From Catonella massiliensis (GTDB taxonomy: Bacteria > Bacillota > Clostridia > Lachnospirales > Lachnospiraceae): 64,000 nucleotides of DNA. Numbering within the stretch: position 1 is the stretch's first letter; every line of letters starts with the position of its first letter. Both the position numbers and the translations under genes were made by a program. Location: assembly GCF_016651435.1 (NCBI RefSeq), contig NZ_JAEPRJ010000001.1:2604001-2668000 (forward strand). The letters run 5' to 3'. Positions 22,273 through 44,913 of this stretch are shown here, piece by piece. Under the pieces are notes generated by a model. It saw only the letters and a list, made by a program, of their open reading frames with translations, was not told the DNA's origin and did no database searches.

Positions 22273-22317
22273 AAAAAAAGCCCTCCAAGTAAATCCCTGG
22301 AGGACTAAAATTTACTT
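22273..22317 (-). repeat. Displaced tuf terminator copy (left half, interrupted by IS4 element)
   Basis: On the minus strand this is a hairpin (CCTCCA/TGGAGG type stem with a T7 tail), clearly related to the terminator after tuf at 43658-43692. Joined to 23906-23932 across the IS, it also reproduces the spacer between tuf and its terminator: AATTTACTTAATTGATAA, then CAATCAG. No tuf codons remain here. Confidence 0.7.
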
Positions 22318-23905
22318 ACTAAGACTTCCCACACCAATACGGTGTGTTGAACCTTGAAAATTCAATATTTCAGCCAATAAAGAATGGCATAAACCTACCC
22401 AGTTTGGTATAATGGAATTGACAAGAAACCATTGTACAAAGGAGATTTATGCCATGTCCAGTATAACACAAAATCATTTCGATGAGAATAACTTAATTGA
22501 CTGTGTTCGAAGATTTTTTTCCAGACATCATGTTGGCAGGCTTATTGCCAGATGTAATGGGATGAAAGAAAAAGGTGTTTCACCTGTTTCTTTGCTTCGT
22601 TACAAACTCAGCAACATTTTCGTTGGAAGAAGTATGTATATGCAACAACGTACCGGTTCTTTTAAGGAAGATTTTTCAAAGAACACTTTTTATCGTTTCC
22701 TTAATTCGGTAAAAACAAACTGGCTTCGTTTTACTTCTCTTCTTGCTGCTGACATCGTAAATAATGATCTCAAAAACCTAACAGATGATAAAAGGAAAAA
22801 TGTTTTCATCATTGATGACAGTCTTTTCAATCGCACCAGCTGCAAGAAAACTGAGCTGGGGTCAAAGGTTTTCGATCACACGGATATGCATTTCAAAAAA
22901 GGATTTCGTATGCTTACCTTAAGCTGGAGCGATGGAAATACACTTATCCCGGTGAACAGCTGCCTGTTAGCATCTGCAAAAGATACAAATATCATCGGTC
23001 CTGTAAAACACTTTGATAACAGAACCCTTGCAGGTAAAAGGCGTAAACTTGCTCAGACAAAAGCTCCTGAAGCAATGATGACACTGTTGGATACTGCTCT
23101 CAGTGCAGGGCTGAAAGCTGATTATGTCCTTTTTGATTCCTGGTTTTCAAACCCCGCTCAAATCACAGCTATCCATTCAAACGGTATGGACGTAATTGCT
23201 ATGATTAAGAAAAGCAGTCGAATCAAGTATTCACACTGTGGTGAGCAACTGAATATCAAAGAGATCTATTCCCGGAACAAAAAGCGCCGTGGCAAATCAA
23301 AGTATCTGCTTTCTGTCTGTGTTATGGTAGGAAAGGAGAATCCAATTCCGGCAAAGATTGTTTGTGTAAGGAACAAAGCTAATCGCAAGGACTGGCTTGC
23401 TTTTATCTGCACAGATACTACCCTTTCCGAAGAAGAGATTATCCGTATTTATGGAAAACGCTGGCAAATTGAGGTTTTTTTCAAAACCTGCAAATCTATG
23501 CTGAATCTTATTGGAGAATGCCATAGCTTATCCTATGATGCACTAACAGCCCACGTAGCAATTGTGCTTACCAGATATATGTTAATTGCAATGGAGCAAC
23601 GTCAAAATGAAGATCAGAGAACCCTTGGTGAGTTGTTCTTCTTCCTTGTCGATGAAATGGCAGACATTACTTTCAGCAGATCACTTGGCATCCTGATGGA
23701 TGCCTTGATGGCAAGCCTTCAGGTAATCTTAAAGCTCAGTGATGAGCAATTGACTGCTTTTACTGCTGATTTTGAAGCAAGACTACCTGAATATCTGCGT
23801 AATGCGCTCCATCCGGAGGCTGTAGTGGCATAAATCGTTATTTTAGTAGCTGAAGTATTGAATTTTCAAGGTACGGATCCCATTTTAGGTATGGGAAGTC
23901 TTAGT
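22318..23905 (+). mobile_element. IS4-family insertion sequence, complete
   Basis: Ends are inverted repeats in two blocks: ACTAAGACTTCCCA at the outer ends (22318 onward and the complement ending 23905), and ACCTTGAAAATTCAATA with TTCAGC slightly inside. A 5-bp target duplication TACTT flanks it (22313-22317 and 23906-23910). About 1588 bp with one transposase gene and no decay, so it is probably active or recently active. Confidence 0.9.
22454..23833 (+). CDS. IS4-family transposase
   Basis: 459 residues from the ATG at 22454; AAAGGAG lies about 9 bases upstream. DDE-type transposase. The first Asp is in FIIDDSLFNR, the second in LFDSWFS, and the Glu lies in YGKRWQIEVFFKTCK, which fits the IS4 signature Y-(2)-R-(3)-E-(6)-K exactly. 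The C-terminal part is helical. It is the only gene of the IS, and it is on the plus strand whereas the genes around it are on the minus strand. Confidence 0.92.
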   Translation: MSSITQNHFDENNLIDCVRRFFSRHHVGRLIARCNGMKEKGVSPVSLLRYKLSNIFVGRSMYMQQRTGSFKEDFSKNTFYRFLNSVKTNWLRFTSLLAADIVNNDLKNLTDDKRKNVFIIDDSLFNRTSCKKTELGSKVFDHTDMHFKKGFRMLTLSWSDGNTLIPVNSCLLASAKDTNIIGPVKHFDNRTLAGKRRKLAQTKAPEAMMTLLDTALSAGLKADYVLFDSWFSNPAQITAIHSNGMDVIAMIKKSSRIKYSHCGEQLNIKEIYSRNKKRRGKSKYLLSVCVMVGKENPIPAKIVCVRNKANRKDWLAFICTDTTLSEEEIIRIYGKRWQIEVFFKTCKSMLNLIGECHSLSYDALTAHVAIVLTRYMLIAMEQRQNEDQRTLGELFFFLVDEMADITFSRSLGILMDALMASLQVILKLSDEQLTAFTADFEARLPEYLRNALHPEAVVA

Positions 23906-23932
23906 TACTTAATTGATAAGCAATCAGCTAAA
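23906..23932 (-). repeat. Displaced tuf downstream spacer (right half)
   Basis: TACTTAATTGATAAGCAATCAG continues the tuf-terminator copy cut by the IS. It differs by one base from the sequence following tuf at 43699-43720. Similarity stops after this, where the tuf stop codon would be. Confidence 0.7.
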
Positions 23933-23957
23933 GAGAAAATATACAAACGTATATTCT

Positions 23958-24119
23958 ACTTCGAAGTAACTTTGAAATTACTTCGAAGCTAAATTTCAAA
24001 GTAGCAAGTCTACATTTATTTGTAGCTTCTTTTTACATCCCCATATATTGTGGCTATAGTAAAATTTACCACAATAAAAGCAAGTCTTACTTAGAAGAAC
24101 TTCGAAGTTACTTCGAAAT
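23958..24119. repeat. Cluster of TTCGAA palindromic repeats
   Basis: ACTTCGAAGTAACTTTGAA with ATTACTTCGAAG at 23958-23988, and ACTTCGAAGTTACTTCGAA at 24099-24117. Four palindromic TTCGAAG cores flank about 110 bp. The right cluster includes the stop codon of the AlbA/RecG-like gene. They could be regulator-binding sites or debris of a small inverted-repeat element. Confidence 0.5.
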
Positions 24120-25019
24120 CATTTCATATGTCTGCTTAGGGTCAGTCAAGGCTCCATTTCTTTTAATAATATTCAAGTCCATCAAGTGCTTCAGTCTAAT
24201 TCCAACAGTTCTGCCTGATCTTTCAACAAGAGCTGCAAGTTCTGATGTAGTCACCAGCTTATGGCTTGCCATATATACCAGTATCTTTCGTTCCATATCA
24301 TCTAAATCATCCCATGCAGCTTCTCCTATACTATCTGCAATTTTTTCTTTCTGCCTGATTGACCTCATTGCAATGTTATTTTTTAGTATAAGTTTTACTG
24401 TTTGTTCAGGTTCAGAATATTCAGGTGGACTCAGATAAAAATCCTTCATATCTGAAAAAATTCTTTTAACTCCCTCATTTAGCTCACGTACCCATCCGAA
24501 CTCGGTAAGAACTCGCGCGATTCTCGGATTTCTAGAATACCTCGTAGTTTGGATATTTTCAACACTTACAATATTAGGAAGCTTACCCGGACTCTGTATC
24601 TCCAATCTATCATCAAACATAGTAATTTTAATATAGCTTCCTGCCATACCATATTCGCGATGCGTAACTGCATTTACAATTCCCTCTAACCAAGAAAACT
24701 CCGGATACTCAGGTACATTCTGAAACCTCCCTGTATTCAAATCCAATGAAGTGAACTCGCGAAGCTGAGTTATAATAAATTCTTTTGTCTTATCAATAAT
24801 GCGTAAAATTGGGTATTCTATGTTCACATCTTTGATGATGTTAATATCTACCCCTACTTGTTCAGCATTCCCATCATATCTAACAAAACGAATTTTCCTA
24901 TCACTTATGCCTAAAACAATTGTTCCTCCTTCAGCATTAGCAAAGGCGGATATCAAATCAGCTATATCGCTAGGCTTTATTTTTGCTGATTTGCGATCAA
25001 AATATTTATTTTTCTCCAC
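24108..25019 (-). CDS. AlbA/RecG-like ATP-binding transcriptional regulator, internally shortened
   Basis: 303 residues from a GTG at 25019. Residues 1-40 (YFDRKSAKIKPSDIADL, then ANAEGGTIVLGI) are the start of an AlbA_2 (Schlafen-AAA-like) domain. The next recognisable stretch, IRFVRYDGNAEQVG and onward, normally lies about 150-200 residues further along, so the domain appears to have lost its middle without a frameshift. A GHKL-like part follows (GIVNAVTHREYG, FDDRLEIQSPGKLP), then a C-terminal winged helix (TTSELAALVERSGRTVGIRL). Its ribosome-binding site GGGAGG is the arm of a displaced tuf-type terminator hairpin just upstream. It may be a decayed gene kept open by chance or a shortened functional regulator. 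Confidence 0.6.
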   Translation of the reverse strand: MEKNKYFDRKSAKIKPSDIADLISAFANAEGGTIVLGISDRKIRFVRYDGNAEQVGVDINIIKDVNIEYPILRIIDKTKEFIITQLREFTSLDLNTGRFQNVPEYPEFSWLEGIVNAVTHREYGMAGSYIKITMFDDRLEIQSPGKLPNIVSVENIQTTRYSRNPRIARVLTEFGWVRELNEGVKRIFSDMKDFYLSPPEYSEPEQTVKLILKNNIAMRSIRQKEKIADSIGEAAWDDLDDMERKILVYMASHKLVTTSELAALVERSGRTVGIRLKHLMDLNIIKRNGALTDPKQTYEMISK

Positions 25020-25020
25020 A

Positions 25021-25136
25021 AAAAGCCTCCCAATGTTATCCCCTGGAGGGCTTCATTATACTTTATTAAAGTAAATCAGTTATGATTACTCAACGATAGT
25101 AGCAACCTTACCTGATCCAACTGTTCTACCACCCTC
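25021..25136 (-). pseudogene. Displaced 3' end of tuf plus terminator (copy at 25.1 kb)
   Basis: 25086-25136 encodes, in frame with a stop, [16 protein letters not shown], against [16 protein letters not shown] at the end of intact tuf. A spacer and a terminator hairpin (25021-25052) follow as after tuf. To the right of 25136 the tuf similarity ends abruptly and unrelated sequence shared with the 35.45 kb copy begins. Confidence 0.85.
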
Positions 25137-25275
25137 ACAGTTCTACGATGTGATAAATTGGGTAGTTGAGGGTTGTTTTAGGTATATTTTGTATCATTTA
25201 TCGCTACTTTCCTGGTAGTAATTTGTTTTAGGGAAATTTTTAGAGCCATGATAGAGCCAGAATGTAGCATATTCT
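25137..25275 (-). repeat. Non-tuf segment shared with 35444-35580
   Basis: Adjacent to the tuf fragment, about 130 bp can be aligned to 35444-35580. Shared blocks include TTCTAC, AGGGT, ATCGCTA, GTAATTTGTTTT and the AGGGCCAG/AGAGCCAG region, with small gaps. No gene is seen in it. It is best explained as the common end of two related integrated elements. Confidence 0.6.
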
Positions 25276-25283
25276 CTTAATGG

Positions 25284-27281
25284 CTATACACCTAGTTTAT
25301 CAAACAGAACTCTATTTCTTTTTTCTGCATCATTTATTATCTTATCAAACGATAAAATTTCTATATAAGCATGACAATTTTCATGATATTTATATAACCC
25401 CATCTTATCTGGTGTTTCTTTTAAATCACTTCTACTCATAATCTTTTTAAGGCTGGGTGTTATATCACATACTGCATACAAGTAAAATTGCGTGTTTTTA
25501 CCAACCTTAATTATCCGTCCGTTCTTATCTGCAACTTTATTTGTCGATAATTTTTCGACATACCCTAACATCTGAATCAGCGGATTATTAGAATCTGTAT
25601 AATCATCCCTCATAGGTTTCTTTAGTTCTATAATTACTATAGTTTCATATTCTCTTCCACAATTGTCTTCATCTGATACCGCAACTGGATTATCTAATAT
25701 CATCACATCCGTTCTCTCCTCTTTCGGATTATTATCAAATGGTATGTCTGATGATATATATTCACTATAAGCAAGCCGTTCATCTATAAGCCATAAATTA
25801 TGTGACAAATATTCAATTTCTTCCGATGTCCTTCGCATAGGATATATTAGGTTATGTATATATGCTTCCTTATTAAATTTTCCATCTTCCTTAAGATTAA
25901 TTCCCTTCTTAAGTAATTCTAACACAACTTTTCTGTGTGCAACATATTCTGCTAACGCTGCTTTGTTAGCCTCACTTATTTTTTGAAATTGTATTTCAAA
26001 TTTCTCTTTATACTCTGCTAAGTTCACCACTCCTACATCTATTTTTCTTAATATTTCCTCATTTGTCTTCTTTAGTTCAGAATCAAATTTTCTCTTAATC
26101 TTATATAGTTCTTCATCAAGTTTGTTATCTGATAAGCCTGGCTTAATTTCATCTATTGAGTCTGGCATATATGTCAATAGATGTCCAAATTGTGGTGCTT
26201 TATCACGTATATATTTCCTAATATATTCTTTTTTATTTTTGCGTACATCATCTAAATATTCTGATAAATAGCCTTCTACTTTTGTTTTTGCTGTTTGCAC
26301 TATGTCTTCCATTGAAATTTCTTCATCTTCCTTATTTTCTGAAATGTCAAATGAAGTTCTATTCATATCAACATTATCATCTAAAAATTTCCCAGATAGA
26401 ATTCCAACATAATAATAACCCTTATCATCAAATATATTTTTATCTAAATCAACTATTTCTTTATTTAAATCTATACCTTTAACCATTCTATTATTTGCAA
26501 ATAAAAACAGTTTGCTTCCTCCAAGTGTTGCATCTTGTAACTGTGTATGTAATAATTCAAAGCTTTCTCCCTTTATGTCAATAACTTCATTTTGGGGTTC
26601 TCTATACATTTTCTTTTCAAACATACTATTAAGATTATATTTCTTATCATCTATAACATATATCTGTGGACACTTAGGAAACATTAAATATATCATACAA
26701 TGCTGCATCAATTTCATAGCTATTGTTTCAGCATTTTTATTTACATGTTTTCTATAAGTCGGTAAATAATCAACAAGCGATACACAGGTTCTATTTTCTT
26801 TAATATACTTCTCTTCAATAAGATCATCATCAATCTCCGCCTTATCTAAAGAAAATTCAAAGTTTCTTTTGACCAATACATTATCGCTATAATCCTTAAA
26901 TATGCTTTCAATACACGTTTTTGAAAATGCCTTTAACCAAGAAAATCTACCAACACCTTTACCGCCTTTATCCGCACGATATGTTGAATCGGATTGTAAA
27001 AAAGATTTCATATTATTCTCATCTAATCCAATCCCATTATCAATAATTTTGAAACCAGTTATTTCATTTATACTTCTATCAATTCCCTCAAGTTTAGCTA
27101 TTTCCTGTTGATCTCTAATAATTTCTATTTCTACTTTGCCGTTAAATGCTTCCTTTTGTTGCCTTTCTTGTATGGCAAATATAGAATTTACAACAGCTTC
27201 ATATAATGGTATCAATGGCTGATTTTTGGGTAAATCAAAATTTTTTACTCTTCCAGCTAAGTCAATTGTAAAGCCTACCAT
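25284..27281 (-). CDS. GHKL (Hsp90/MutL-type) ATPase with a C-terminal PD-(D/E)XK-like nuclease
   Basis: 665 residues. The N-terminal ATPase shows the N-box YEAVVNSIFAI (Asn32), the motif IIDNGIGLDENN (81-90) and the glycine loop GGKGVGRFSWLKAF (106-119). A transducer-like region with RMVKGIDLNKEI and DMNRTSFDI follows, then a long lysine- and glutamate-rich helical region (about 340-460). The C-terminus has RTDVMILDNP followed by TIVIIELKKPMRDDY, a plausible D...ExK nuclease core. A ribosome-binding site GAGGGAAAA precedes the ATG. It lies 135 bp after the restriction endonuclease gene and on the same strand, so it is probably the third gene of the restriction-modification locus. Related GHKL-nuclease proteins are known from defence islands; I do not recognise this exact family. 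Confidence 0.75.
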   Translation of the reverse strand: MVGFTIDLAGRVKNFDLPKNQPLIPLYEAVVNSIFAIQERQQKEAFNGKVEIEIIRDQQEIAKLEGIDRSINEITGFKIIDNGIGLDENNMKSFLQSDSTYRADKGGKGVGRFSWLKAFSKTCIESIFKDYSDNVLVKRNFEFSLDKAEIDDDLIEEKYIKENRTCVSLVDYLPTYRKHVNKNAETIAMKLMQHCMIYLMFPKCPQIYVIDDKKYNLNSMFEKKMYREPQNEVIDIKGESFELLHTQLQDATLGGSKLFLFANNRMVKGIDLNKEIVDLDKNIFDDKGYYYVGILSGKFLDDNVDMNRTSFDISENKEDEEISMEDIVQTAKTKVEGYLSEYLDDVRKNKKEYIRKYIRDKAPQFGHLLTYMPDSIDEIKPGLSDNKLDEELYKIKRKFDSELKKTNEEILRKIDVGVVNLAEYKEKFEIQFQKISEANKAALAEYVAHRKVVLELLKKGINLKEDGKFNKEAYIHNLIYPMRRTSEEIEYLSHNLWLIDERLAYSEYISSDIPFDNNPKEERTDVMILDNPVAVSDEDNCGREYETIVIIELKKPMRDDYTDSNNPLIQMLGYVEKLSTNKVADKNGRIIKVGKNTQFYLYAVCDITPSLKKIMSRSDLKETPDKMGLYKYHENCHAYIEILSFDKIINDAEKRNRVLFDKLGV

Positions 27282-27416
27282 AGTTTTCCCTCTTTCATCT
27301 AAAACTCTATGACTGAGTTGTAATACAATTTATATTTAACAAACCACATCGTATACACTTACTTAAATTCATTATATTGTAATTCTACATATGCTTACCC
27401 TTTATATGAACTAAAA

Positions 27417-28847
27417 TCACACATTCTCCCCATTATATATTCCAGCCTCTTTCACAATATTTTTTTCATACCATTCTTTAGGGGCTCCATCACTATGATA
27501 AGCAACATCAAACATTTTATATATCTGTGGGTATTTCACATCAAATTTCAATAGAGTCTTTAGTTCTTTAGTTTCTATTGGAAGTATCTTCATTCCTTTA
27601 ATATACTCTCCCGCATTGTTATAATACTCCATATATTTTCTGGCTCTAAAATCGGATATCACATTATTATTTAGGTATGTTGTTATAAATACACAGTAAG
27701 CTTCATCTTTAGGGTGTGCTAAGCAATAATCTCCTAAATGTCTTGAAACAGGCTCCATTTCCATCCTACGCTGATTTGAACCGTCTGCAAGAGTTGCCTC
27801 TATCAGCAAAGTATGTTTAGGATAAGCATCTGTCTTATCATACTTCCATACTATATCTGCTTCACCTCCACCGGCATGGGTTTTAGGTAATAGATCGGCT
27901 TCTAAGGATAAATTCATGTATTCAAGAACATCTCCTTTTCGTTCACTGACTATATACCAAGAGATACCGAGCACATATTCAAATATCGTAGGTATATCAG
28001 CATTATCTGTAACCAGATTCCTTATTTCATCATCATTTCTACTCTCAAAAGCACTAAATAGTCTAATAAGAGTCTCTTTATCAAACTTATCATCTATAAG
28101 CTTATTAAATCTTGCGTATCTCTCATTCTTAATAACCTTTTTAGCCATTTTTTTGTTAGATACGCTTGTACCAAGAGCCTGTCCTAATTTTTCATATAAG
28201 TCATCTATATCAATTTCAAAGAATGTGCCAATATCTTTTAATGGGACATTCTTTGACAATAATTTTGTCTTGCAGAAAGCAATATCTAGTAAATGGTCAG
28301 ATATCATATCAATATAACATTTGGGCAATACATCAAGCTTTACCTTATTGTCCTCAAATAAAACTATATCTGTAATCTTAAAGTATCTCCTGTTTAGGTC
28401 AAAGTAGTCTGATAACGTTGCCTTTGCCTTAAAAATATGCATTATCTTAAAAAACTCTTCATTAAAAGTTTTTTCTGATGTTGCATGAAATATTGGAACT
28501 GTATTTAATACCGATAAACCTTCCCTAGCTATTACACTTCTCGCATTACTATTAAAGAAATGCTTTCTCCAAGCCCCACCAACCTTACTGTTAGTCAATT
28601 TCTTCGTGGCTTCATAAAGTTCCAATGCAAGATTATCTTTCGAAAACACTATCTTCTTTAGTATTGTATATAATTTATAATATGGTTTATCATACATTGC
28701 ACTCTTTCTATTGATTCCAACATTACATATCAATTCTTCCGATATCTGTTCTGTTTTTAGTAAATTCAATGCTTGCTTATAATTATCCTTTTCCATTAGA
28801 ACTGATAAAATAATGTCATCAAATTGTTTCTGTTCAACCTTCCTATA
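27417..28847 (-). pseudogene. AlwI-family Type IIS restriction endonuclease, C-terminal part (split by IS110 element)
   Basis: The 459-codon frame from 28796 is preceded in frame by further sense codons back to about 28845 (reading RKVEQKQFDDIILSVL before the first Met). Family features are GISWYIVSERKGDVLEYMN, then LEADLLPKTHAGGGEADI.W with LLIEATL, the PD-(D/E)XK-type core of AlwI, MlyI and PleI nucleases. RRMEMEPVSRHLGD follows. These enzymes cut at a fixed distance from an asymmetric site. The missing N-terminal third lies at 30887-31483 on the far side of an IS110-family element. With the element removed the frames join, so the original protein would have been about 650 residues. As it stands the nuclease is almost certainly inactive. 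Confidence 0.82.
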
Positions 28848-29363
28848 ATGTCAAGCCCTAAATCATTTAATTTCAGGCTTTTCTTTAAATATTTACCTCA
28901 TAAAACAGAGCAAAAAATGTATGACAGTCATTGTATTTTATACTGAACAGCTAAAAGAGGGTGTAGTTTATAAAGCATCCCATTGTTTTGCTTTATAAAG
29001 GCTATAAATCCTCTGCTAACTATGATGGTGAACCTTCCGTGTCTAAAGGGATCGTGTCCCAACTTCCTTCGTCCCACCTGTCCATACACCGAGTGCCTGC
29101 TAAGCTTTCTAACAGGGTCATGCCCTACGGAGAGAACTACTGCAAGCTACAGCTCTTGTTTGTTTTTTGATTTTACTGACCTGCATACTCCACAGGGTAC
29201 GGATATTCCGTGGATGCTTACCCTGACTCGTTTTGCTGGTCATTGTGATGATGCAGCACCTGTAGCGCTCCATCGTTATCGGGTTCCCTTCCAGAACCCT
29301 GCCCGATCTCGGAAGAATCCGACACCCGGCAAGGCTCTGGAATAAATTTTGCTGTCGACTGTT
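28848..29363 (-). ncRNA. Candidate bridge/seek RNA region of the IS110-family element
   Basis: About 515 bp with no credible gene, clearly richer in G and C than the A/T-rich flanks. It contains several local inverted pairs, for example GGTACGGATATTCCGTGG and GGGTTCCCTTCCAGAACCC. It lies downstream of the transposase. IS110-family elements encode a structured guide RNA in a noncoding end; in the IS1111 group it is on the transposase 3' side, as here. I infer the RNA from family knowledge and position and have not defined its loops. The plus-strand 120-codon frame here is not convincing. Confidence 0.45.
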
Positions 29364-30791: not shown

Positions 30792-30886
30792 TTTAGATAC
30801 CTCTTGTGTTTTTTAGATTTTACCAACTGGCAGGTCAGTAATAATCTAAATTTACTTGAGGTATTTTTTTATGTCAATCTCTTGAC

Positions 30887-31483
30887 CTATTTATAGTATA
30901 CAGGAAGCTTTCTATGCCTTTTTATACTACTAATGATATCTTTTGTTGTATGTTCATCTATACATAGCGGCAATAGGTATGTAAATTCATCATTTGTAAG
31001 ATATTCTAATTCATTTATTAAATATAAAAAGACAACAAACGGTCTTACCTCCTTACCTTCAATAAAATTAGATGTTTTTAACATCTGCTTGAAATACAGG
31101 TAACTGTCTTTTGAAATCTCCAAAAAATTATCAGAAGAAAAGTCATTCAATGAAGCAATTTTCAGCAATTCTAACCCTGATTCCGTTATATTTCGTTCAT
31201 CATCAAGAAGGCCTATATCTCTTAATCCTGAAGTTTTTTCTCTTGCATCCTTATCTGGACGTGCTGCCTCACCTTTTAAAAATCCATTTTCTTTTAAGAA
31301 ATTGTAGTATTCTGCCTGAAACTCATTATTACCATTCCATTCCTTGTTTTTATTTTCTTTCAGTTCTCTAAACTGTTTTAATAACTGCAACTGTTTTTCT
31401 ATGCTCAAGTTGAAATTATCTGTACGATAGCTTGTCGTGCCAATAGACCAGCAGTAACTTTTAAACCCAATCCCTTTATCCAT
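30887..31483 (-). pseudogene. AlwI-family restriction endonuclease, N-terminal part
   Basis: 198 codons ending in a TAG created at the IS110 junction. The start YCWSIGTTSYRTDNFNLSIE, followed by QAEYYNFLKENGFLKG, KDAREKTSGLRDIGLLDDER and IT.SGLELLKIA, is the typical N-terminal DNA-binding region of AlwI-family nucleases. The frame continues in the C-terminal part at 28847 once the IS is removed. A site AGAGGGG precedes the ATG, which is 16 bp after the methyltransferase stop. Some truncated product could still be made and bind DNA. Confidence 0.82.
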
Positions 31484-31499
31484 AAAACATCCCCTCTAA

Positions 31500-35248: not shown

Positions 35249-35325
35249 GGCAGGACTATGAGAAGTTTGGTTTTAATCTATTCTAAAGCCTTGGTTTGAT
35301 ACACAATTTATAATTCTATTTCTAT

Positions 35326-35443
35326 AAAAAGCCCCCCAAGGTTATCCCTTGTGAGGCTTCATTATACTGTATTTATAGCCAATCAGCTGATATTATAGTG
35401 CGATAGTAGCAACCTTACCTGAACGGGCTGTTCTACCACACTC
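35326..35443 (-). pseudogene. Displaced 3' end of tuf plus terminator (copy at 35.4 kb)
   Basis: 35393-35443 encodes, with a stop, ECGRTARSGKVATIAL, a diverged version of the end of EF-Tu ([16 protein letters not shown]). The terminator hairpin at 35326-35360 starts with the same AAGCCCCCCAAGGTTAT as that after tuf. Right of 35443 it continues into the segment shared with the 25.1 kb copy. Confidence 0.8.
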
Positions 35444-35580
35444 ATGCTTCTACTGTTGTAGAATCGAGGTGGTTTAGGGTGTTTTTGTAGCTTATATCGC
35501 TATTTTCGCGTTTGTAATTTGTTTTTGGAACATTTTTATAGTCAGAATAGGGCCAGTAGCAAACTGCATATTTTAATCTT
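35444..35580 (-). repeat. Non-tuf segment shared with 25137-25275
   Basis: See the 25137 copy: the same order of short identical blocks continues beyond the end of tuf similarity, including TTCTAC at the junction and GTAATTTGTTTT inside. This segment is on the tuf-proximal side of the fragment, where the end of an element integrated between here and 43.7 kb would lie. Confidence 0.6.
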
Positions 35581-35657
35581 CTAGTAGAGAATGTATTCAA
35601 GATTAGTTCGGTTTCTCTCTTACCAAGAGAGCCTGAACACACTCCTCATTTATACCA

Positions 35658-38423
35658 TTAACTTATGCTTATGAAATCTTCAACTATCTTTGTGTACTGT
35701 TCTGAATAATGTATTTTATACCATCCCAAGCGCCAATTTGACTTTACATACGATATTGCTTGTGCACGAGGAAATAAGTAACGTATTTTGCAACATGACC
35801 ATATAAACCATTCAGGAACTGCTGCATCTTGCAGTATTCCTATATATTCCGAATACCTGTTGCTGTGATCATACGCCCATTCCCCTTTTCTAACTTGCTC
35901 TGTAATTAAATATGCTGTCGCTTCATCTATACCTTTATTTATCATAAAATCATACATATCATCCCTACTAGAAATAATTTCAGACAAATCTGCCTTTCCT
36001 TGTTCCAATAATAATTCCGCATTATCACTCCACACATCTGTTCCATAACATAATGCAAAGACTTTAACCAGTTCATCAAAGTTCTTAGGCATTGCCTTCT
36101 TTAAAATTTCTATCAAGCCTTGAACCATAAAGTCTGGAAGTTCCTCGCAACCCATCACACCATTGAAGTCAAAAAACAGTTCCATGATTTCTGGTTCGCA
36201 ATAAGTCAGTTCATCTGGCATATCTCCCGTGATTTCTTCAAGCTTTTCTAACATGTCAAAGCAGAAATGAGATAATATGTCCTGCTTAAACAGGCAATTA
36301 TCCAACCTATAGTAATAATTAAAATATGTAATTGCCCGCTTATCTTTTGTAAAAGCAAGAGGAGTATAATCTTGCACCTCGTCACCTTGGGGTATAAGAA
36401 CAATTCCACTTGGATTAACCCTTTTATCCTCATATACATTTTGTAAATCAATTACAATTTTTTTTACTTTATCTTCTGAAAAAATAACATTATTATTTTT
36501 CTGATAGTCTTCTACTGCTACATAAGCCATCTCTTCAGATACACAAATTTCTGTTGATGCTAAAACAGTTGAACTGATTCCATCACAATTTCTATAAATT
36601 GCAATAGCTTTTTTCCTCATATTTGTCGAGAAATTTAGGTCAATATCAGCTTCTTTTATCTTGTTAAAACCAAACACAAAATATGGAGAAAGATTATATT
36701 GAATAGGGTTTATATCAGATATTCCAAGCAAAAAACACACCAAGGTATTTCCAGCACAACCTCGAGTGTTTATCTCAAATGGTCTTACATTAAGATTCTC
36801 TATTAAGCGATGCAAATAAATAAATGCAAATTCTGTGTTTGTATTATGTATCGCCTCGAGTTCCCAATTCAATCGTTCTTCTATTTCTTCAGGCACATTA
36901 TCCTTATATAATTTCCATAATTTGCTCTCACACAACCTTCTTATTTCTATGGAATCGTTCTCATTATATGGATAATGCTTTCCTTCCGGTAGAAAATCTA
37001 TCACTTCACACATATTGGCTATTTTATTTGTATTAGTGATTACAATTTTTCTTGCCTTTTCATCTGGTAAATAGAAAAATTCTTCCAACATCTCTTTTGT
37101 TGTTCTAAAATGCAAGTCCGTATCATCATCTTCATCAAACCCACGATATGCTCTTAGTATCTTTCTGCTCAATAAATCTTCTTTGTGCAAATAATGAGCG
37201 TCTGATGTTGCTACAACCGGAATACCCAACCGTTCTCCTAAAGAAATCAGTCGTTGATTTATATCAATAAGATCCTGCTCAGTCTGAATATAAGAATATA
37301 TTTCTTGTTCCAGCAGAAACTTATTATTCATATGTGGCTGGACTTCAATAAAATCAAAGCGTTTTGCTATTTCCTCTATCTCCTCTTCACTTTTATCATT
37401 GATAATAGCTTTATATAGCAACCCAGCTTTGCATCCACTTCCCAATAGTAAATTACCCCTGTTATTGCATAATTCACGCAATGAAAAAATAACTCTTCCT
37501 TTTGTCGCCTTACTTTTCTCCTCTTGCGAAATCATATTATAGATTATCTTTTTCCCTTTAGAGTTTTTCAACAAAACTGTACAATGATAGATTGCAGATT
37601 TTTCAAAAGTTTTTGAGCAATGCTCTATATTATCATTAACATATTCAATAGCAACATTTTTAATCTTCAATCTTTCAGTGATCTTGCTAAATATCATTCC
37701 ACAGGCAGTTGCATCATCTACAGCCCGATGACAATGTTGGATATTAATACCTAATTCCTCACATACACTGTCGAGTTTATATATTTGAAATTCAGGATAT
37801 ACATATCTGCACAACATTAATGTATCAATATATGTCGGACAGTAATCCACTCCTGCTTTATTCGCAGCTACTTTTAGAAATCTAATATCAAAGTTAGCAT
37901 TATACGCCACAAGTATGTTATCTCCCGCAAACTTACAGAATTCTCTTAATGCCACCTTAATATCGGGAGCATCAGAAACCATCTCATTTGAAATGCCTGT
38001 AATTTTTTCGATAAACTTTGATATATTTTTACCCGGATTCACTAAAATACTAAATCTATCAACCACTTCTCCATTACACACCTTTACTGCACCTATTTCA
38101 ATTATATCATTCTTTTTTGCGGAAAACCCTGTTGTTTCAACATCTACTGCAATAAACACAGAAATATCCTGCCCATTATAGTTATATACTGCTTTCTCAT
38201 AGTCATCTACTACATAAGCTTCCATTCCAAAAATAGGCTTAACATTACAATCATCAAATGAAGTTGCCCATTCAAGTTCCGGAAACATCAGTATGTTCCC
38301 AGTGTCAGTGATTGCAACTGCCGGCATTCCTTCTTTCTGTACCAATTTGACTATATCATATGGACTAGCCAGACCATCCATCTCACTATATTTACTATGA
38401 CAATGTAATTCTACTCGTTCCAT
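35658..38423 (-). CDS. Stand-alone PolC-like protein: PHP domain with inserted DEDDh exonuclease and a reduced polymerase palm
   Basis: 921 residues against about 1430 for housekeeping PolC. It starts directly at the PHP domain (VELHCHSKYSEMDGLA, His7, His9), lacking PolC's N-terminal and OB regions. A proofreading exonuclease is inserted at about 88-255 with all DEDDh residues visible: AVDVETTG (Asp94, Glu96), AYNANFDIRFL and HRAVDDA. PHP resumes with ATSDAHYLHKEDL, although the usual ITDHG is ITDTG (Thr41). Polymerase motifs follow: TRGCAGNT for SRGSVGSS, ADIDLNFS with both palm aspartates, then NPSGIVLIP and QDILSH. It ends after IRYLFPRAQAISYVKSNWRL, without PolC's C-terminal tail. It is the last gene of a five-gene operon. 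It could be an active small polymerase/exonuclease or a decoy paralogue. Confidence 0.85.
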   Translation of the reverse strand: MERVELHCHSKYSEMDGLASPYDIVKLVQKEGMPAVAITDTGNILMFPELEWATSFDDCNVKPIFGMEAYVVDDYEKAVYNYNGQDISVFIAVDVETTGFSAKKNDIIEIGAVKVCNGEVVDRFSILVNPGKNISKFIEKITGISNEMVSDAPDIKVALREFCKFAGDNILVAYNANFDIRFLKVAANKAGVDYCPTYIDTLMLCRYVYPEFQIYKLDSVCEELGINIQHCHRAVDDATACGMIFSKITERLKIKNVAIEYVNDNIEHCSKTFEKSAIYHCTVLLKNSKGKKIIYNMISQEEKSKATKGRVIFSLRELCNNRGNLLLGSGCKAGLLYKAIINDKSEEEIEEIAKRFDFIEVQPHMNNKFLLEQEIYSYIQTEQDLIDINQRLISLGERLGIPVVATSDAHYLHKEDLLSRKILRAYRGFDEDDDTDLHFRTTKEMLEEFFYLPDEKARKIVITNTNKIANMCEVIDFLPEGKHYPYNENDSIEIRRLCESKLWKLYKDNVPEEIEERLNWELEAIHNTNTEFAFIYLHRLIENLNVRPFEINTRGCAGNTLVCFLLGISDINPIQYNLSPYFVFGFNKIKEADIDLNFSTNMRKKAIAIYRNCDGISSTVLASTEICVSEEMAYVAVEDYQKNNNVIFSEDKVKKIVIDLQNVYEDKRVNPSGIVLIPQGDEVQDYTPLAFTKDKRAITYFNYYYRLDNCLFKQDILSHFCFDMLEKLEEITGDMPDELTYCEPEIMELFFDFNGVMGCEELPDFMVQGLIEILKKAMPKNFDELVKVFALCYGTDVWSDNAELLLEQGKADLSEIISSRDDMYDFMINKGIDEATAYLITEQVRKGEWAYDHSNRYSEYIGILQDAAVPEWFIWSCCKIRYLFPRAQAISYVKSNWRLGWYKIHYSEQYTKIVEDFISIS

Positions 38424-38538
38424 AAAAACACCTCACTAATATGTTCTCTGAAGCAACTCTATCCAAGTTTTTTCAGAACGGTCATCAATATATACATCTC
38501 TATTGCTATGATGTAAGCATACCATAAATGTATGTACA

Positions 38539-39390
38539 TTATTTTTTACATATCAAAACAATTTTTTTTGCCCAGCTCTCGGTTATTGAGTTATCATCAA
38601 GAACTATCTCTTGCCAAATTCCGGCATAATAAATGCCTCCACCATTTTTTGCCGAATTCTTCCTCTTTGTTTTTACTAAATTATCGTGATTATATGCATT
38701 TTCGTATTTCCAAGTAGCTTTAGTTTTTCCCTCCATTGTAAGAACACGTTTTGGGTCATAATCAAAGGTACCACACCCTGGCATTTCTGGTGCAAACGTC
38801 AACTTTTCTGTTGCGAGGTAAATTGTATTATTTGATTCCCTATTTCTCTCGACACATGAATGCGGATGCCAATAAAATTTCCTTATTTCTTCTGCTTTAT
38901 GAACCACTTTCCCCACTTGCATATAACCCCATATCGCCTGAATAGGCATACCAAAATAAACATCCTTATTATTCTTGCCTTTTCTAACATACTGATAGGC
39001 TCCAGCCTTATTTCTAACTACATGCCTGAAATTACCAAAAAAAAGAAATAAATCTCCCTCTTTCACGCAACAATTTCTTAAGTATCCTGCTGCTTGATTT
39101 ATTTGTCCAAATGCCGGACACCAATTCTTAACCGGATTTTTTCTCCTGCTTGCAACTAAATCAGGATCTAAATGACAACAATCCGGTTGCTTGTTTAAAT
39201 CATATCCCAAATCAAGTAATATCTTATCAAGTCCTACTTCAGCACAAGTCAATTCTTCATACTTTATATTATCTTTCTTCTTGTCTTTACTCGGTATAGG
39301 TAACGAAAGCATAATACGATTGTCTATAATCGGACTTAGTATTCCACCATTTGTACTATCAAAACCTTTTCTGCTAAGTATTACTTTCAT
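38539..39390 (-). CDS. Nmad3-like (nucleotide modification associated domain 3) protein
   Basis: 283 residues. The start KVILSRKGFDSTNGGILSP with LSLPIPS, then CCHLDPDL, CPAFGQINQAAGYLRN, GDLFLFFGNFRHV, GMPIQAIWGYMQVG and WHPHS, match the family annotated as nucleotide modification associated domain 3. That family was proposed, from phage and bacterial gene neighbourhoods, to act with DNA base modification; the reaction is unknown. The site GGAG precedes the ATG. It is 115 bp upstream of the PolC-like gene on the same strand and 136 bp after the WYL regulator, within the operon. Confidence 0.7.
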   Translation of the reverse strand: MKVILSRKGFDSTNGGILSPIIDNRIMLSLPIPSKDKKKDNIKYEELTCAEVGLDKILLDLGYDLNKQPDCCHLDPDLVASRRKNPVKNWCPAFGQINQAAGYLRNCCVKEGDLFLFFGNFRHVVRNKAGAYQYVRKGKNNKDVYFGMPIQAIWGYMQVGKVVHKAEEIRKFYWHPHSCVERNRESNNTIYLATEKLTFAPEMPGCGTFDYDPKRVLTMEGKTKATWKYENAYNHDNLVKTKRKNSAKNGGGIYYAGIWQEIVLDDNSITESWAKKIVLICKK

Positions 39391-39526
39391 TTATTCTTCT
39401 CCATATCAAAATAAAATCTCTTAATTTGTTCTTCCTTTATACATCTACTGTTTTTAAACCATTAACAGTGTAAAATATCACTTACTACTGTAATTTCATT
39501 ACTTTTCCAATCAAAATTAAACATTT

Positions 39527-40525
39527 TCATTCCCCATTTCTATTATATTTTTCATTCATTTCACTTACTGCTTCTGCAATTTTACGACGCAAAGAAACAG
39601 GTTCTAGAACTTCAACATATGGTCCGTATTGTAATGTCCAATAAAAGAAAGCCTGCTCATTGCACCTCAATCTAACCAAGACCTGGTTGTTTTGCCTTTT
39701 CTTAATAACATAAAAATCATTTCCAAACCAGTCTACAAGTTCACCTATAATCGTTTCATCAACAAGCATATTAATTGTAACACTGCCTCCACTAAACATA
39801 TAAATATGCTCTGCCATGTGTTTCGGAAGATTCAACCCCTGTTCCAGACCCATCACTTGATTCTGCTGTTTTACTTTTTCTGTCAGCATTTCTACGCAGG
39901 TCATTTTATCTAGCCGGTAATGGGAAATATCATCGTACTTATCATAATTTCCAATTAAGTAGTAAAATCCATTATTAGCTACCATTTGATATGGATTAAC
40001 TATATATTTTTCCTCTCGTTTAGGATGCAGTTTAAAATCAGAACCATATTGGTTGTAAACAAAACTGATTTTCTTATGCTGCGAAATAGCCTCATTTATT
40101 GTATCTAGAACATACATAAGCTGCTTATTATACCCATGGCGCAGTTCTGGCAAATTAATAATATGATTTACTTTTGCAGAAAAATATTTGTTACCGATGC
40201 TTTTAAGTTTTTCAATCAATGTCTTCGCCTGCTTTTGCGTCAAAAATTTTGCAAATAAGACACTATCTATAAGCATACGCAATTCTACATCGTCAAACTC
40301 TCTCTCTAAAAGATAATATCCGTCTTCCATGGAAATTTCATAGCCCAATTCTCTCAAACACACTACATTATTCTTTACAGATCTACGATCACAAACCATA
40401 TCATAATTAGATTTCAGCAATCTTATAATCTCCTGCTGGGTCAATCTATGCTCTTGATCCGAATACTCTTTCAAGATTTCCAAAATCAACATATTAAGCA
40501 TTTTTTTATTTCCTGTAGCGTACAT
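39527..40525 (-). CDS. WYL-domain transcriptional regulator
   Basis: 332 residues. N-terminal winged helix (MLNMLILEILKEYSDQ, TQQEIIRLLKSNYDMVCDRR, VCLRELGYEISMEDGYYLL), central WYL domain (ISFVYNQYG, YIVNPYQMVANNGFYYLIGN, ISHYRLDKM) and a C-terminal WCX extension (ALRCNEQAFFYWTLQYGPYVEVL-type end). WYL proteins with this layout often control phage-defence loci and are thought to sense nucleic acid or nucleotide ligands. The site GAGAGGAATAGGT precedes the ATG. Middle gene of the five-gene operon and its likely regulator. Confidence 0.88.
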   Translation of the reverse strand: MYATGNKKMLNMLILEILKEYSDQEHRLTQQEIIRLLKSNYDMVCDRRSVKNNVVCLRELGYEISMEDGYYLLEREFDDVELRMLIDSVLFAKFLTQKQAKTLIEKLKSIGNKYFSAKVNHIINLPELRHGYNKQLMYVLDTINEAISQHKKISFVYNQYGSDFKLHPKREEKYIVNPYQMVANNGFYYLIGNYDKYDDISHYRLDKMTCVEMLTEKVKQQNQVMGLEQGLNLPKHMAEHIYMFSGGSVTINMLVDETIIGELVDWFGNDFYVIKKRQNNQVLVRLRCNEQAFFYWTLQYGPYVEVLEPVSLRRKIAEAVSEMNEKYNRNGE

Positions 40526-40584
40526 ACCTATTCCTCTCCGAAGACTGTATATAAAGTGTGCTGTATATTCATCAAGCTTCTCTC

Positions 40585-41070
40585 CTATTTTTCTTCTCTT
40601 TGAATAACCTTAAATTTTTGCCTGTCATAACGTTTGTATTTCTTAGGAAATTCAGTAAAGTTCAAATTCGTATATGCCCAAAGATCCTCGCCTTCACGCA
40701 GTGTAATTAGAACTTTAGCCAACTCATTTCCCAATACATCTCTGCGATATAGAACTGCCCCATTAAGTAAATTAAATGCAAATGTTACTATATCGTTATT
40801 TGCCAAAAAATCCACATAATTCCGAACTACATCTGTACTTTCTTCCATTGCATCGTCAACCATTCCAATATCAAGTACAGAATAATCAGCTGATTCTGCT
40901 TCATAATGCATAACAATTATATTTGTATTCTTATCAGATAATTCATCATTTTCTTTATCCTTACATGCATAATTATAAATTGTAGGGATTATCACTGCCA
41001 TTGTCAAGTTTTCATCTTTTTCAAATAGCTCTGCTTCAAATGGTACTCCACCAGCAATAATTCCTTTCAC
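40585..41070 (-). CDS. Unknown protein following the PARG gene, with in-frame upstream extension
   Basis: 161 codons from GTG at 41070 (KGIIAGGVPFEAELFEKDEN). Mixed alpha/beta, acidic in the middle, ending in NFTEFPKKYKRYDRQKFKV. I do not assign a family. The GTG has only a weak site, and the same frame remains open upstream for 49 codons to 41217, directly after the TGA of the PARG gene and in its frame. That stretch encodes an exact repeat of ESEGYYT. So the real protein may start further upstream at a non-ATG codon, arise by readthrough, or be half of a former fusion. Second gene of the operon. Confidence 0.6.
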   Translation of the reverse strand: MKGIIAGGVPFEAELFEKDENLTMAVIIPTIYNYACKDKENDELSDKNTNIIVMHYEAESADYSVLDIGMVDDAMEESTDVVRNYVDFLANNDIVTFAFNLLNGAVLYRRDVLGNELAKVLITLREGEDLWAYTNLNFTEFPKKYKRYDRQKFKVIQREEK

Positions 41071-41217
41071 AAATACAAGATTTTTCTCAGTTACTCCGTC
41101 TGTATTATTGCAAACCGTATAATCATAATTGCTCGTATAATACCCCTCAGACTCTTTTGTATAATACCCCTCAGACTCTTCATCTTCATCTGTATCAATC
41201 AGAAAATCATTCGGATA

Positions 41218-42039
41218 TCAGACAAGGATTTTGTCCTTAAACACCTCCTTGAAATCCTCAATTTTATTTTCATCCTCTAAGATGGCAAACACAACATTTT
41301 CAAAGAATTGACTCAATCCATCATCTCCGAAAAACAACTGATAAAAATAAGTAGCTACTCTTCTCGTATCATTGCCAAACGCTCCACATCCCCATGCTCC
41401 CAAAACAAGATTTCTATATCCCTTTCTGGCAGCCAGAAACAACATCTTTCTTAATCTTTTGACCATTACATTATCCAAAACTTCTTGAGATATCCTTGAA
41501 GCCGATCCACATTTATTCGGTGCAGGTACAGTAATTACAGAAGTCCAAAACGGATAATCCAATAACTCCCCAGTAAAACTTCTGTATACATACACACTTG
41601 GACTTAACAACATATAATCTGAATCGCACGGTTTCCTGTGAATGTTGTTATAATCATACATTTCGCGCGCTTTATCACTTGAGATTGACTTATATAGCGT
41701 ACTGCATCTACATAATGATTCCTCTTGGGCTCTTGCACCATTCAAATATCCACCTCCAGGTCTATGGGCATTTGCAAAATTCATCACAAGCGTTCTTTCC
41801 AATCCACTTGCTGCTTCAAAAGAATCTGCATTTACAACAAAAAAAGATGCACCTTCTGTTACACAGAAAGAGTGTTCAAAGAACTCATCTACACTATTCT
41901 CAATATCCTGCAAATGTTCAGGTGAATACACTTCAACATCTTCACATTCATTACAACCAGTCTCTTTAATAAAATCTTCTGTAAACTGAATTGTTTCTTT
42001 TGCCATTGCAATTAAATCCAATCTTCTCATTTTTATCAC
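41218..42039 (-). CDS. Bacterial poly(ADP-ribose) glycohydrolase, macrodomain, TIGR02452 family
   Basis: 273 residues. The catalytic PARG signature GGG...QEE is present: FANAHRPGGGYLNGARAQEE, with the two glutamates that hydrolyse the ribose-ribose or ribose-protein bond. Other macrodomain features: FVVNADSFEAA before it, DYPFWTSVITVPAPN and LVLGAWGCGAFGND, the last being the diphosphate loop. It removes ADP-ribose from protein or nucleic acid, or degrades free polymers. The site GAGAGG lies before the ATG at 42039. First gene of the five-gene operon that runs to 35658. No ADP-ribosyltransferase is visible in the window. Confidence 0.85.
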   Translation of the reverse strand: MIKMRRLDLIAMAKETIQFTEDFIKETGCNECEDVEVYSPEHLQDIENSVDEFFEHSFCVTEGASFFVVNADSFEAASGLERTLVMNFANAHRPGGGYLNGARAQEESLCRCSTLYKSISSDKAREMYDYNNIHRKPCDSDYMLLSPSVYVYRSFTGELLDYPFWTSVITVPAPNKCGSASRISQEVLDNVMVKRLRKMLFLAARKGYRNLVLGAWGCGAFGNDTRRVATYFYQLFFGDDGLSQFFENVVFAILEDENKIEDFKEVFKDKILV

Positions 42040-42199
42040 ATCCTCTCGTGTATTACGAATAAATTATGGGATTCTCCACAATGTGAGTATATCATAGTTA
42101 TATGTTCATTATTTTGTACGCAAAAGATTTATCTTTTTCTTCTCAAATTCTTCTTCCATCAAAATATGCAAAATTTAAATGTGATTGACACAAGACGCA

Positions 42200-43653
42200 A
42201 TCGGGTAGGAGGTAGATAATTATTTTATCTACCGACCTCCCACACCACCGTGCGTACCGTTCGGTACACGGCGGTTCTTTAGTTTTCACATATTTTCATG
42301 TAGTACTCTGTGAATGTCGGATAGCCGAGTTCACGGAGTTTCTTATTGTTAAATGCAGTCTGTAATACGAAGTATCCACCACAATACCAGTTTCCATTTC
42401 GCATATTTGCGCATATCCACGCTTTCTCTTCATCTACACCTAACTTCTTTAGTTCTTTGAATTTAGTCTTTACTTTCTTCCATTGTTTCCAGTAGATTGT
42501 CCTTATTTTATGTCTCAGCCATTCGTCAGTTCTAAGAAGGATACTCTTTATATCTGCAAGCCCAAAGTAATTGACAAATCCACGTATATAAAGCGTAAGT
42601 TTCATTGCCCTGTATGAATTACTCCATCCGTTACTTCTTTTTGTCAGTTCCCTTATTCTGTCTTTCATCTTAGCTACTGACTTTGGGTGTATCCTCAGTC
42701 TGCATTCCCCCTTGTACCTATAAAAGCTGTACCCTAGGTATTTGACCTTGCTTATATGCTCCACGCAGGTTTTCTCCTTGTTTACTTTAAGAAACAGTTT
42801 ACCTTCTATATATGGCGTGATATTGCGTAAGGTTCTCTCTGCACTCTTTCTGCTTCTACAAAATATCATACAGTCATCTGCATATCTGACGTATCTGTGT
42901 CCTCTTCGCACCAATTCCTTATCTAGCTCATTTAGCATTATGTTGCTAAGCAACAGGCTAAGTGGACCACCTTGCGGTACTCCTACCTCGGTTCTTTCAA
43001 ATACTCCTCTGCTTATCACTCCTGCATTGAGATACTTGTGAATAAGAGATATAACCCTTCCGTCTCTGATGGTTCGTGATAGTACTTCAATAAGCTTACT
43101 TTGGCATACTGTGTCAAAGAACTTCTCTAAATCCATATCTACCACATATACATATCCATCATTTACGTTTGTCTGACACCTCTTTAGTGCATCGTGTGCC
43201 CTTCTGTTTGGACGAAATCCGTAGCTGTCTTCTGAAAACTGTTTCTCGTAAATAGGAGTTAGCACCTGTGCTATTGCCTGCTGAAAAACTCTGTCAACAA
43301 CCGTAATGGTACTATGACTTTTGCTGACTTCTTGCCATTCGTTGTTACTATGGCTTCTTACTCTGTTTCCACCACTGGCAAGACCTCCCTCGGTACCACA
43401 CGTTTCTTTCTCCCCACCTATCTGCCACATTTACCATAGCTAATTCCGAGTAGTTATTGGACTTCAGTTTGCTATGCAACCTTATCCTTAGCCATAGCCT
43501 GATGTGATTTCTATTCGTCAGACCGGAGATTTGCCATCCGACTTCCTTCAGATTCCACCTCACGATGGACACCCTTGTCTTCGGCGCATCCTTCCCACTA
43601 CTAGGGCGGATTAGGGACTTTCACCCTTTAGAAACGTGCGCCGCAAGGCACAC
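42200..43653 (-). mobile_element. Group IIC intron with an internal deletion, next to the tuf terminator
   Basis: The 5' end GTGTGCC (43653) lies directly after the T-run of the tuf terminator, the preferred target of class C introns. A structured 5' region follows (43430-43650), then a reverse-transcriptase frame. Domain V is visible at about 42250-42285 (AGAACCGCCGTGTACCGAAC, then GGTACGCACGGTGG). Domain VI is the TAGATAAAATAATTATCTA hairpin, and the 3' end is ...CTACCCGAT at 42200. At 1454 bp it is about 400 bp shorter than usual, from loss of the start of the protein gene. RNA domains look complete, so it might still splice if protein were supplied. Confidence 0.85.
42279..43430 (-). pseudogene. 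ltrA: Group II intron reverse transcriptase/maturase, N-terminally deleted
   Basis: 383 codons. From residue about 43 it matches bacterial class C maturases: TVVDRVFQQAIAQVLTPIYE, FSEDSYGFRPNRRAHDAL, VPQGGPLSLLLSNIMLNELD, the active site RYADDCMIF and a maturase domain X with NYFGLADIKSILLR. No HNH endonuclease domain, as expected for class C. The first 42 residues are not related to the family; the conserved RT-0 and early RT-1 region preceding TVVDRV is missing. This is consistent with a deletion joining the leader to the middle of the gene. Probably inactive. Confidence 0.85.
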
Positions 43654-43657
43654 CCTT

Positions 43658-43692
43658 AAAAAAGCCCCCCAAGGTTATACCCTGGAGGGCTC
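43658..43692 (-). terminator. tuf (str operon) terminator
   Basis: Minus strand: GCCCTCCAGGG, short loop, then CTTGGGGGGC followed by TTTTTT. The same hairpin in diverged form is found at 22273, 25021 and 35326. Confidence 0.9.
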
Positions 43693-43725
43693 AAATTTAC
43701 TTAATTGATAATCAATCAGTTACAA

Positions 43726-44913
43726 TTACTCGATGATAGTAGCAACCTTACCTGATCCAACTGTTCTACCACCCTCACGGATAGCGAAACCAAGACCAGC
43801 TTCCATTGCAACTGGATGAATAAGCTCAACAGTAATCTCTGCGTTATCACCAGGCATACACATCTCTGCATCGCCATTAAGTGTAACTACACCTGTAACG
43901 TCAGTTGTTCTGAAGTAGAACTGTGGACGATAGTTGTTGAAGAATGGAGTATGACGTCCACCCTCTTCCTTTGAAAGAACGTATACCTGAGCTGTAAACT
44001 TCTTGTGGCAAGTTACACTGCCTGGTTTACAAAGAACCTGTCCTCTTTCAATCTCATCACGGTTAACACCACGGAGAAGAGCACCGATATTATCACCAGC
44101 CTCAGCTGTATCAAGAAGCTTACGGAACATCTCGATACCTGTAACTGTTGTCTTTCTATTCTCCTCACGTCCACCAACGATCTCAAGCTCGTCGTTAAGT
44201 TTAAGTGTACCACGCTCTACTCTACCTGTAGCAACGGTACCACGACCTGTAATTGTAAATACATCCTCTACAGGCATAAGGAATGGCTTATCTACATCAC
44301 GCTCTGGATCTGGGATATAAGAATCTACAGTATCCATAAGCTCCATAATCTTATCTCCCCAAGGACCGTGTGGATCCTCAAGAGCCTTAAGAGCTGAACC
44401 TCTAACGATTGGGCATCCCTTGAAGCCATACTCTTCAAGCTGCTCTGTAACTTCCATCTCTACGAGATCGATAAGCTCCTCATCATCAACCATATCACAC
44501 TTGTTAAGGAATACTACGATGTAAGGAACACCTACCTGACGGCTAAGAAGGATGTGCTCTCTTGTCTGAGCCATAACACCGTCTGTAGCAGCAACAACGA
44601 GGATAGCACCGTCCATCTGAGCAGCACCTGTGATCATGTTCTTAACGTAGTCAGCATGTCCAGGGCAGTCAACGTGTGCATAGTGTCTCTTCTCTGTTGA
44701 GTACTCTACGTGAGCTGTAGAGATAGTAATACCTCTTTCTCTCTCTTCCGGAGCCTTATCAATGTTTGCGAAATCTACAGCATTGTTTCCCTGTACTCTC
44801 TCAGAAAGAACCTTTGTTATAGCAGCTGTAAGTGTTGTTTTACCATGATCTACGTGACCAATGGTACCAATATTACAATGTACTTTACTTCTCTCAAATT
44901 TAGCCTTTGCCAT
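43726..44913 (-). CDS. tuf: Translation elongation factor EF-Tu
   Basis: 395 residues, full length. GTPase motifs [25 protein letters not shown] and [10 protein letters not shown]; conserved effector region and C-terminal beta-barrels ending in [18 protein letters not shown]. It brings aminoacyl-tRNA to the ribosome. The site AAGGAGGAAG precedes the ATG. It is the last gene of the str operon, about 160 bp after fusA. The codons for the last 16 residues and the terminator are the segment duplicated downstream. Confidence 0.98.

Follow-up and report, generated by a model that had tools for sequence, protein, structure and literature searches.

Tandem elements with defence-like genes behind tuf in Catonella massiliensis point to the EF-Tu gene end as a probable integrase target

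Integration into the ends of housekeeping genes, accretion of elements, and CIMEs (cis-mobilizable elements) are already known, as is stated in the parts of PMC5704250 and PMC7563491 that were available to us. According to the accessible text of PMC7563491, CIMEs and ICE/IME accretion arrays occupy the 3′ ends of rpmG, rpsI, fda and rplL in Streptococcus salivarius, and IMEs with tyrosine integrases at the 3′ ends of housekeeping genes are described in the accessible part of PMC5704250. In a literature search of partial coverage, with most subscription papers outside it, we found tuf named nowhere as an attachment site, and the word tuf has 0 occurrences in the available main text of PMC12904643, PMC5704250, PMC7563491 and PMC6907783.

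We analyzed a stretch of 64,000 nucleotides from C. massiliensis (contig NZ_JAEPRJ010000001.1, positions 2,604,001 to 2,668,000; hereafter, the window), for which an original prediction had proposed that elements integrate into the 3′ end of tuf and restore the gene each time. Our results indicate that the tuf 3′ end is very probably the target of an integrase, and that the three tandem elements of the window are best taken as stranded, decayed CIME-like elements kept as an island of defence genes (Table 1). According to this model, an incoming element would bring its own EF-Tu tail, stop codon and terminator, by which tuf would be rebuilt, while the old tail would be pushed to the far end of the element. 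We infer that the integrase binds repeat pairs near the element ends and that strand exchange takes place at CGTGA. The two elements and remnant 3 would go back to three insertions in tandem; the integrase end would have been lost afterwards, leaving the window elements without integrase, replication and mobilisation genes, and such stranded elements could presumably move only together with a related incoming element (accretion) or by means of its integrase (in trans).

Table 1. Features of the tuf region, in window coordinates; genes of each element are listed from tuf outwards.
Feature	Position	Strand	Description
tuf (EF-Tu), intact	43726..44913	-	Pfam GTP_EFTU, D2, D3; last 17 codons, probable attachment site
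Core CGTGA of intact tuf, presumed crossover place	43775..43779	-	Junction comparison, all loci
Element 1	35447..43774	-	Group II intron, PARG-like, 161-aa protein, WYL regulator, Nmad3, PHP/DEDDh/Pol III alpha-like; no integrase
Element 1 far-end pair, degenerate	35537..35555	-	~11 nt nearer to core than element 2 pair
Displaced tuf tail and terminator, degenerate, HECGRTARSGKVATIAL and stop	35326..35446	-	
Element 2	25140..35325	-	ExoX-like/REase-like, double D12-class methyltransferase, IS110-split AlwI-like restriction gene, 665-aa protein; no integrase
Element 2 far-end pair TGGCTCTA-TCA-TGGCTCTA	25241..25259	-	Class as in same-genus locus L031
Displaced tuf tail and terminator, near-intact	25020..25139	-	
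Remnant element 3	23931..25019	-	AlbA_2/RecG-C-like gene at 24108-25019
Third displaced tuf 3′ UTR and terminator, coding part lost, IS-split	22267..23930	-	

Comparison of the tuf region with the window by blastn confirmed that the tuf 3′ end recurs at 25020-25138 (86.7%, E 2e-32) and at 35326-35444 (77.7%, E 4e-14), and showed shorter matches at 22267-22318 (83%, E 7e-7) and 23905-23927 (96%, E 4e-4). Four tuf-end matches within the window are far beyond chance. The last two, listed in the original prediction as further copies, are indeed tuf-derived, but they are the two pieces of one copy that retains 3′ UTR and terminator only: they are separated by an IS that encodes a DDE transposase (22319-23904) and is bordered by a 7-bp target duplication (TTACTTA), and we therefore rejected two separate copies. 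Both of the longer tails, said to encode the last 16 residues of EF-Tu, end in an in-frame stop, although a near-intact coding part remains only at 25.1 kb, where 15 of the 16 residues are identical, against 11 of the 16 at 35.4 kb. Each tail is adjoined, on the side of the element that it ends, by an 87-nt repeat (25174-25260 and 35470-35556; 76% identity). The greater decay of the 35.4-kb tail is a misfit with a simple outermost-is-oldest order, which counts against our preferred explanation and precludes dating the three insertions relative to one another by tail decay. A tRNA gene was not found anywhere in the window.

Displaced tails were present in 19 of 115 genomes of the family (each at least 95% complete, one per genus; the window's genome included), and one more, G066, is doubtful. 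A DNA search of 61 genomes gave 42 with a tuf match, several of them with a second match ending at the identical place in the query. The displaced tails of relatives are cut at the same codon (CGTGA) as those of the window: upstream of the break the sequence departs from tuf at once, downstream it is the tuf tail, and the junction between element and tuf falls on the codon pair CGT GAR. Intact and displaced tails were compared in 18 distinct pairs from outside the window: 69 codon differences were synonymous and 10 nonsynonymous, the excess that would be expected if tails stay functional until displaced; the two window pairs showed 0 synonymous and 8 nonsynonymous differences. The earliest difference in any pair outside the window falls on the sixth base, which would pin the exchange to CGTGA or just before it.

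The intact, integrase-bearing elements that should exist at tuf according to the original prediction were found in relatives, where they end in a displaced tail cut at this same codon. Beside tuf, the complete relatives carry an XRE regulator, a tyrosine integrase (Arm-DNA-bind_4, SAM_3, PF00589), a CHC2 zinc-finger protein and a VapE-like protein. One locus, L035, has both the PF00589 integrase and a Mob_Pre relaxase (PF01076) by Pfam and so qualifies as an IME; a Mob_Pre relaxase was also detected by tblastn in L033, L202, L103 and L223. Named genomes were scanned with five tuf integrases, and a tree was built from 85 rows, i.e., these five and the best 80 of 478 relatives. In this set, in which some rows are one genome under two names (e.g., L107 and L035), 38 of the 40 rows of a single clade lie at a tuf end or a tuf tail, and the remaining two (L104 and L110) start too close to a contig end to tell (0.6 and 1.0 kb). 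None of the 45 rows outside the clade has a tuf tail, with at least 3 kb of upstream sequence available for 36 of them. Of the 33 tuf rows from named loci, 32 have tuf or a tail on their upstream side, at a distance of 0.6-8.1 kb. Among the hosts are Blautia, Roseburia, Claveliimonas, Eubacterium plexicaudatum and Clostridium sp. MD294; examples of isolates in which elements bear an integrase are Blautia sp. An81 and Blautia caecimuris DSM 29492. As judged by comparison, this clade of tuf-end tyrosine integrases occurs in Lachnospiraceae and a few relatives; a class-level search, in which at most six candidates were scored per genome, found tuf-type integrases (E <= 1e-135) in at least 1 of 293 genomes (G031).

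These data bear on the possibility that the tail copies arose by homologous recombination or gene conversion among tuf copies, with no recombinase involved. Once present, the copies are similar enough to recombine with their neighbours; however, a one-codon junction fixed in many genera and a matching integrase clade are not expected from such a process, and conversion from a second tuf was rejected because the window's genome has one intact tuf match only. We regard gene conversion as an extremely improbable source of the tails. Integration into the gene end, by comparison, is supported by the integrase-bearing elements of relatives, the fixed junction and the single integrase clade.

We also considered whether the elements might be phage satellites, spread by helper phages and not by conjugation. 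PICI-type satellites carry an XRE regulator, an integrase, and primase-like and VapE-like proteins, and the XRE, Int, primase-like, VapE order of the relatives resembles theirs. Furthermore, no Mob_Pre match was obtained among the L031 proteins scanned, and integrases of the tuf clade occur on three gut scaffolds named "Bacteriophage sp." However, these scaffolds are marked UNVERIFIED and may be bacterial DNA, and the Mob_Pre relaxase of L035, L033, L202, L103 and L223 argues against a satellite. Altogether, satellites of the PICI kind appear unlikely.

Other loci at the same gene end were recorded apart from this comparison. The integrases of two IMG/VR contigs, L212 and L213, fall inside the tuf clade. 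In L212 (4380-7050), the integrase is beside a shorter EF-Tu tail (VATIIE and stop) that precedes the element, with the pair GGTACTA-AAAC-GGTACTA ~120 nt before this tail, and genes upstream resemble phage tail genes, as judged from translations; this may be a prophage that uses the tuf end too, with a shift of the core. In G018, a different tyrosine integrase of 441 aa (L036, 1045-2370) lies beside the far-end displaced tail and may represent a second type of integrase with tuf as its target. A human gut scaffold, L225 (MT839393.1; filed as phage and marked UNVERIFIED), has a displaced tail whose repeat pair belongs to one class and, after it, an element of another repeat class, i.e., a tandem array.

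Pairs of 7- to 10-mers with a period of 11 are located at the far ends of the elements, ~120 nt from the core, and are putative arm-binding sites of the integrase. An exact 7-mer pair was present 110-130 nt upstream in 37 of 49 distinct displaced-tail contexts (including two false tails, scored as misses), compared with 0 of 48 intact tuf contexts and 34 of 9800 shuffles. Its absence from 12 of the 49 contexts counts against the integrase explanation, as do L113 and L115 (2 of the 19 elements outside the window), in which the left and right repeat classes differ. At least nine repeat sequences were distinguished, among them TGATAACA, GGTGCCAA, TGGCTCTA, TGGTTCTA, TGCTTCTA, TGGCTACA, TGGCTATA, TGGCTCCA and TGATACC. 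In 13 of the 19 elements, both ends share a repeat class (no more than 3 mismatches across the pair); among the same 19, a clear left pair was not found in L032, L056 and L206, and neither pair was found in L093. The mixed ends of L113 and L115 look like the product of a fusion of two elements. In the window, a left repeat pair was found neither for element 1 nor for element 2.

The closest comparison is with G003, a genome of the same genus, in which tuf is followed by a single integrase-bearing element and then by a displaced tail. This element encodes a methylase with 92% and a restriction gene product with 90-91% protein identity to the AlwI-type system of element 2; its far end and tail match window positions 25022-25261 (82% over 241 nt), and no relaxase was found among its scanned proteins. 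Because G003 has only this one element, with the AlwI-type system of element 2, element 1 of the window is absent there, and it was therefore either gained in the window's line or lost in G003. Likewise, because the G003 counterpart bears an integrase, the integrase end of element 2 appears to have been lost in the line leading to the window. Part of a homologue of the AlbA_2-like gene of remnant 3 occurs in L031 and further on in G003, and homologues of the window's left flank are present in G003 in rearranged order, with that of ORF 21219-22220 (62% identity) ~14 kb beyond the displaced tail. An empty site, which the original prediction had asked for, is represented in part by G003, which lacks element 1, but tuf joined directly to the window's left flank was seen in no genome. 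In three further genomes of the genus (G001, G002 and G004), no displaced tail was found in the stretches around tuf, and the genomes showed no homologue of ORF 21219-22220 at E <= 1e-3. That neither a complete empty site in the genus nor a circular form was seen counts against our explanation. The tails, the fixed junction, the integrase clade, the repeat pairs and the partial empty site of G003 are all seen in the sequence itself.

The cargo of the window was annotated with Pfam, PADLOC and Rfam. Restriction, methylase and other defence-like genes are present between 25.0 and 43.7 kb, as predicted. Directly past the tuf terminator lies a group II intron (42190-43660; RF02001, RF00029; RVT_1 and GIIM in its ORF), presumably inserted there as is usual for class C introns. 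The 161-aa protein of element 1 had no match and the 665-aa protein of element 2 no Pfam match; the ExoX-like gene of element 2 is also REase_II-like, and its AlwI-like restriction gene is interrupted by an IS110-family transposase gene (29364-30791), with an unbroken 665-aa homologue in L031. PADLOC (E <= 1e-8) matched 6 of 10 cargo proteins (a set without the N-terminal part of the split restriction gene) and 3 of 10 flanking proteins, a sample too small to show enrichment. The restriction and methylase matches in the cargo are specific, and the three matched flanking proteins are, by our reading, probably a helicase and two ATPases of the transporter type.

Elements 1 and 2 lie between tuf tails (43.77, 35.44 and 25.14 kb), which flank them as att repeats would flank a CIME, and remnant 3 is bounded by one tail and one 3′ UTR remnant only. 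No counterpart of the XRE, Int, CHC2, VapE or Mob proteins of relatives was detected between 22 and 44 kb (Pfam; tblastn, E <= 0.01), and no match to the tuf integrase profile in the window's whole genome at E <= 1e-40. The window elements thus lack recombination and mobilisation genes, as CIMEs do, and have neither the integrase nor the relaxase that an IME would carry. The junction of element 1 is eroded (CATGAGTG), which counts against our explanation. With no integrase, no left pairs and an eroded element 1 junction, the membership of the window elements in this group rests on the tail, the far-end repeat and the G003 counterpart.

Elements without an integrase were also found elsewhere. 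The integrase profile was searched against 22 genomes, i.e., the 19 with displaced tails together with G066, G017 and G020. Tuf-type integrases (E <= 2e-147) were detected in 7 of the 19, in eight matches, four of which have stops in the matched stretch; other genomes gave weaker matches. The match in G009 has a stop and ends before the catalytic tyrosine region, that in G158 is split over two ORFs, that in G141 includes a stop, and in G152 a stop lies upstream of an intact-looking integrase ORF of 357 aa. Between tuf and tail, integrase-less elements of G153 and G029 gave PADLOC matches for 4 of 4 proteins (two methylase-type, a type II restriction gene and a PDC-S46 candidate) and 6 of 6 proteins (Vsr, restriction, cytosine and adenine methylases, and HEC-06/SspE-like), respectively. 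In G067, a tail is accompanied by a CBASS-like cluster (cyclase, E1-E2, JAB); tuf is absent from that contig. For six genes of the G125 element there was no PADLOC match at E <= 1e-8, and the cargo is therefore not always recognisable as defence. Several metallophosphatase-like cargo genes lie beside displaced tails in L195 (G141) and L198 (G107).

Such elements might not be decayed at all, and could instead be non-autonomous cassettes that integrases of the same class routinely move in trans. The G125 element (L203), in which no integrase was found, has matching repeat pairs at both ends, and the elements of G153 and G029 are compact, free of integrase traces and full of restriction genes. 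However, the left pairs are missing or unclear in the window elements, L206 and L056, and no match to the tuf integrase profile that could help them was found in G125 or G153 at E <= 1e-40. We consider routine movement in trans rather improbable and favour decay of once complete elements. A broader proposal, which we offer with considerable doubt, is that the EF-Tu tail may be a docking port common to Lachnospiraceae, with one core and differing arm codes, at which stacked integrase-less defence cassettes are exchanged between species in trans by an arm-matching integrase, and the end of an essential protein is repeatedly rewritten.

Because tuf is essential and highly conserved, an integrase that targets its end would find its site in almost all members of a large family of gut bacteria. 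If our reading is correct, the last 17 residues of EF-Tu in such strains are supplied by mobile DNA. A displaced tail with repeat pairs is a simple signature that finds integrase-less elements missed by integrase searches. Restriction systems, a CBASS-like cluster and further defence candidates are found in the elements examined.

SCC arrays at rlmH in staphylococci are likewise stacked at one gene end, with some members lacking a recombinase, and use serine recombinases. At the locus described here, in contrast, the recombinases of relatives are tyrosine integrases and not Ccr serine recombinases, and the gene is tuf and not rlmH. PICI-type satellites differ from the present elements in that several relatives carry a relaxase. 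Like the IMEs covered in the available part of PMC5704250, the relatives have a single tyrosine integrase and probably restore the gene end, and L035 has a Mob_Pre relaxase as well; unlike the IMEs reviewed there, they carry CHC2 and VapE genes, and L031 has no relaxase match among its scanned proteins. The window elements resemble the CIMEs described in the accessible text of PMC7563491, which are arranged in tandem, bounded by att repeats, located at the end of a housekeeping gene, and include members without recombination or mobilisation genes. Compared with those S. salivarius CIMEs, as far as that text describes them, the target here is tuf, the hosts are Lachnospiraceae, and the examined cargo consists mainly of restriction and other defence-like genes.
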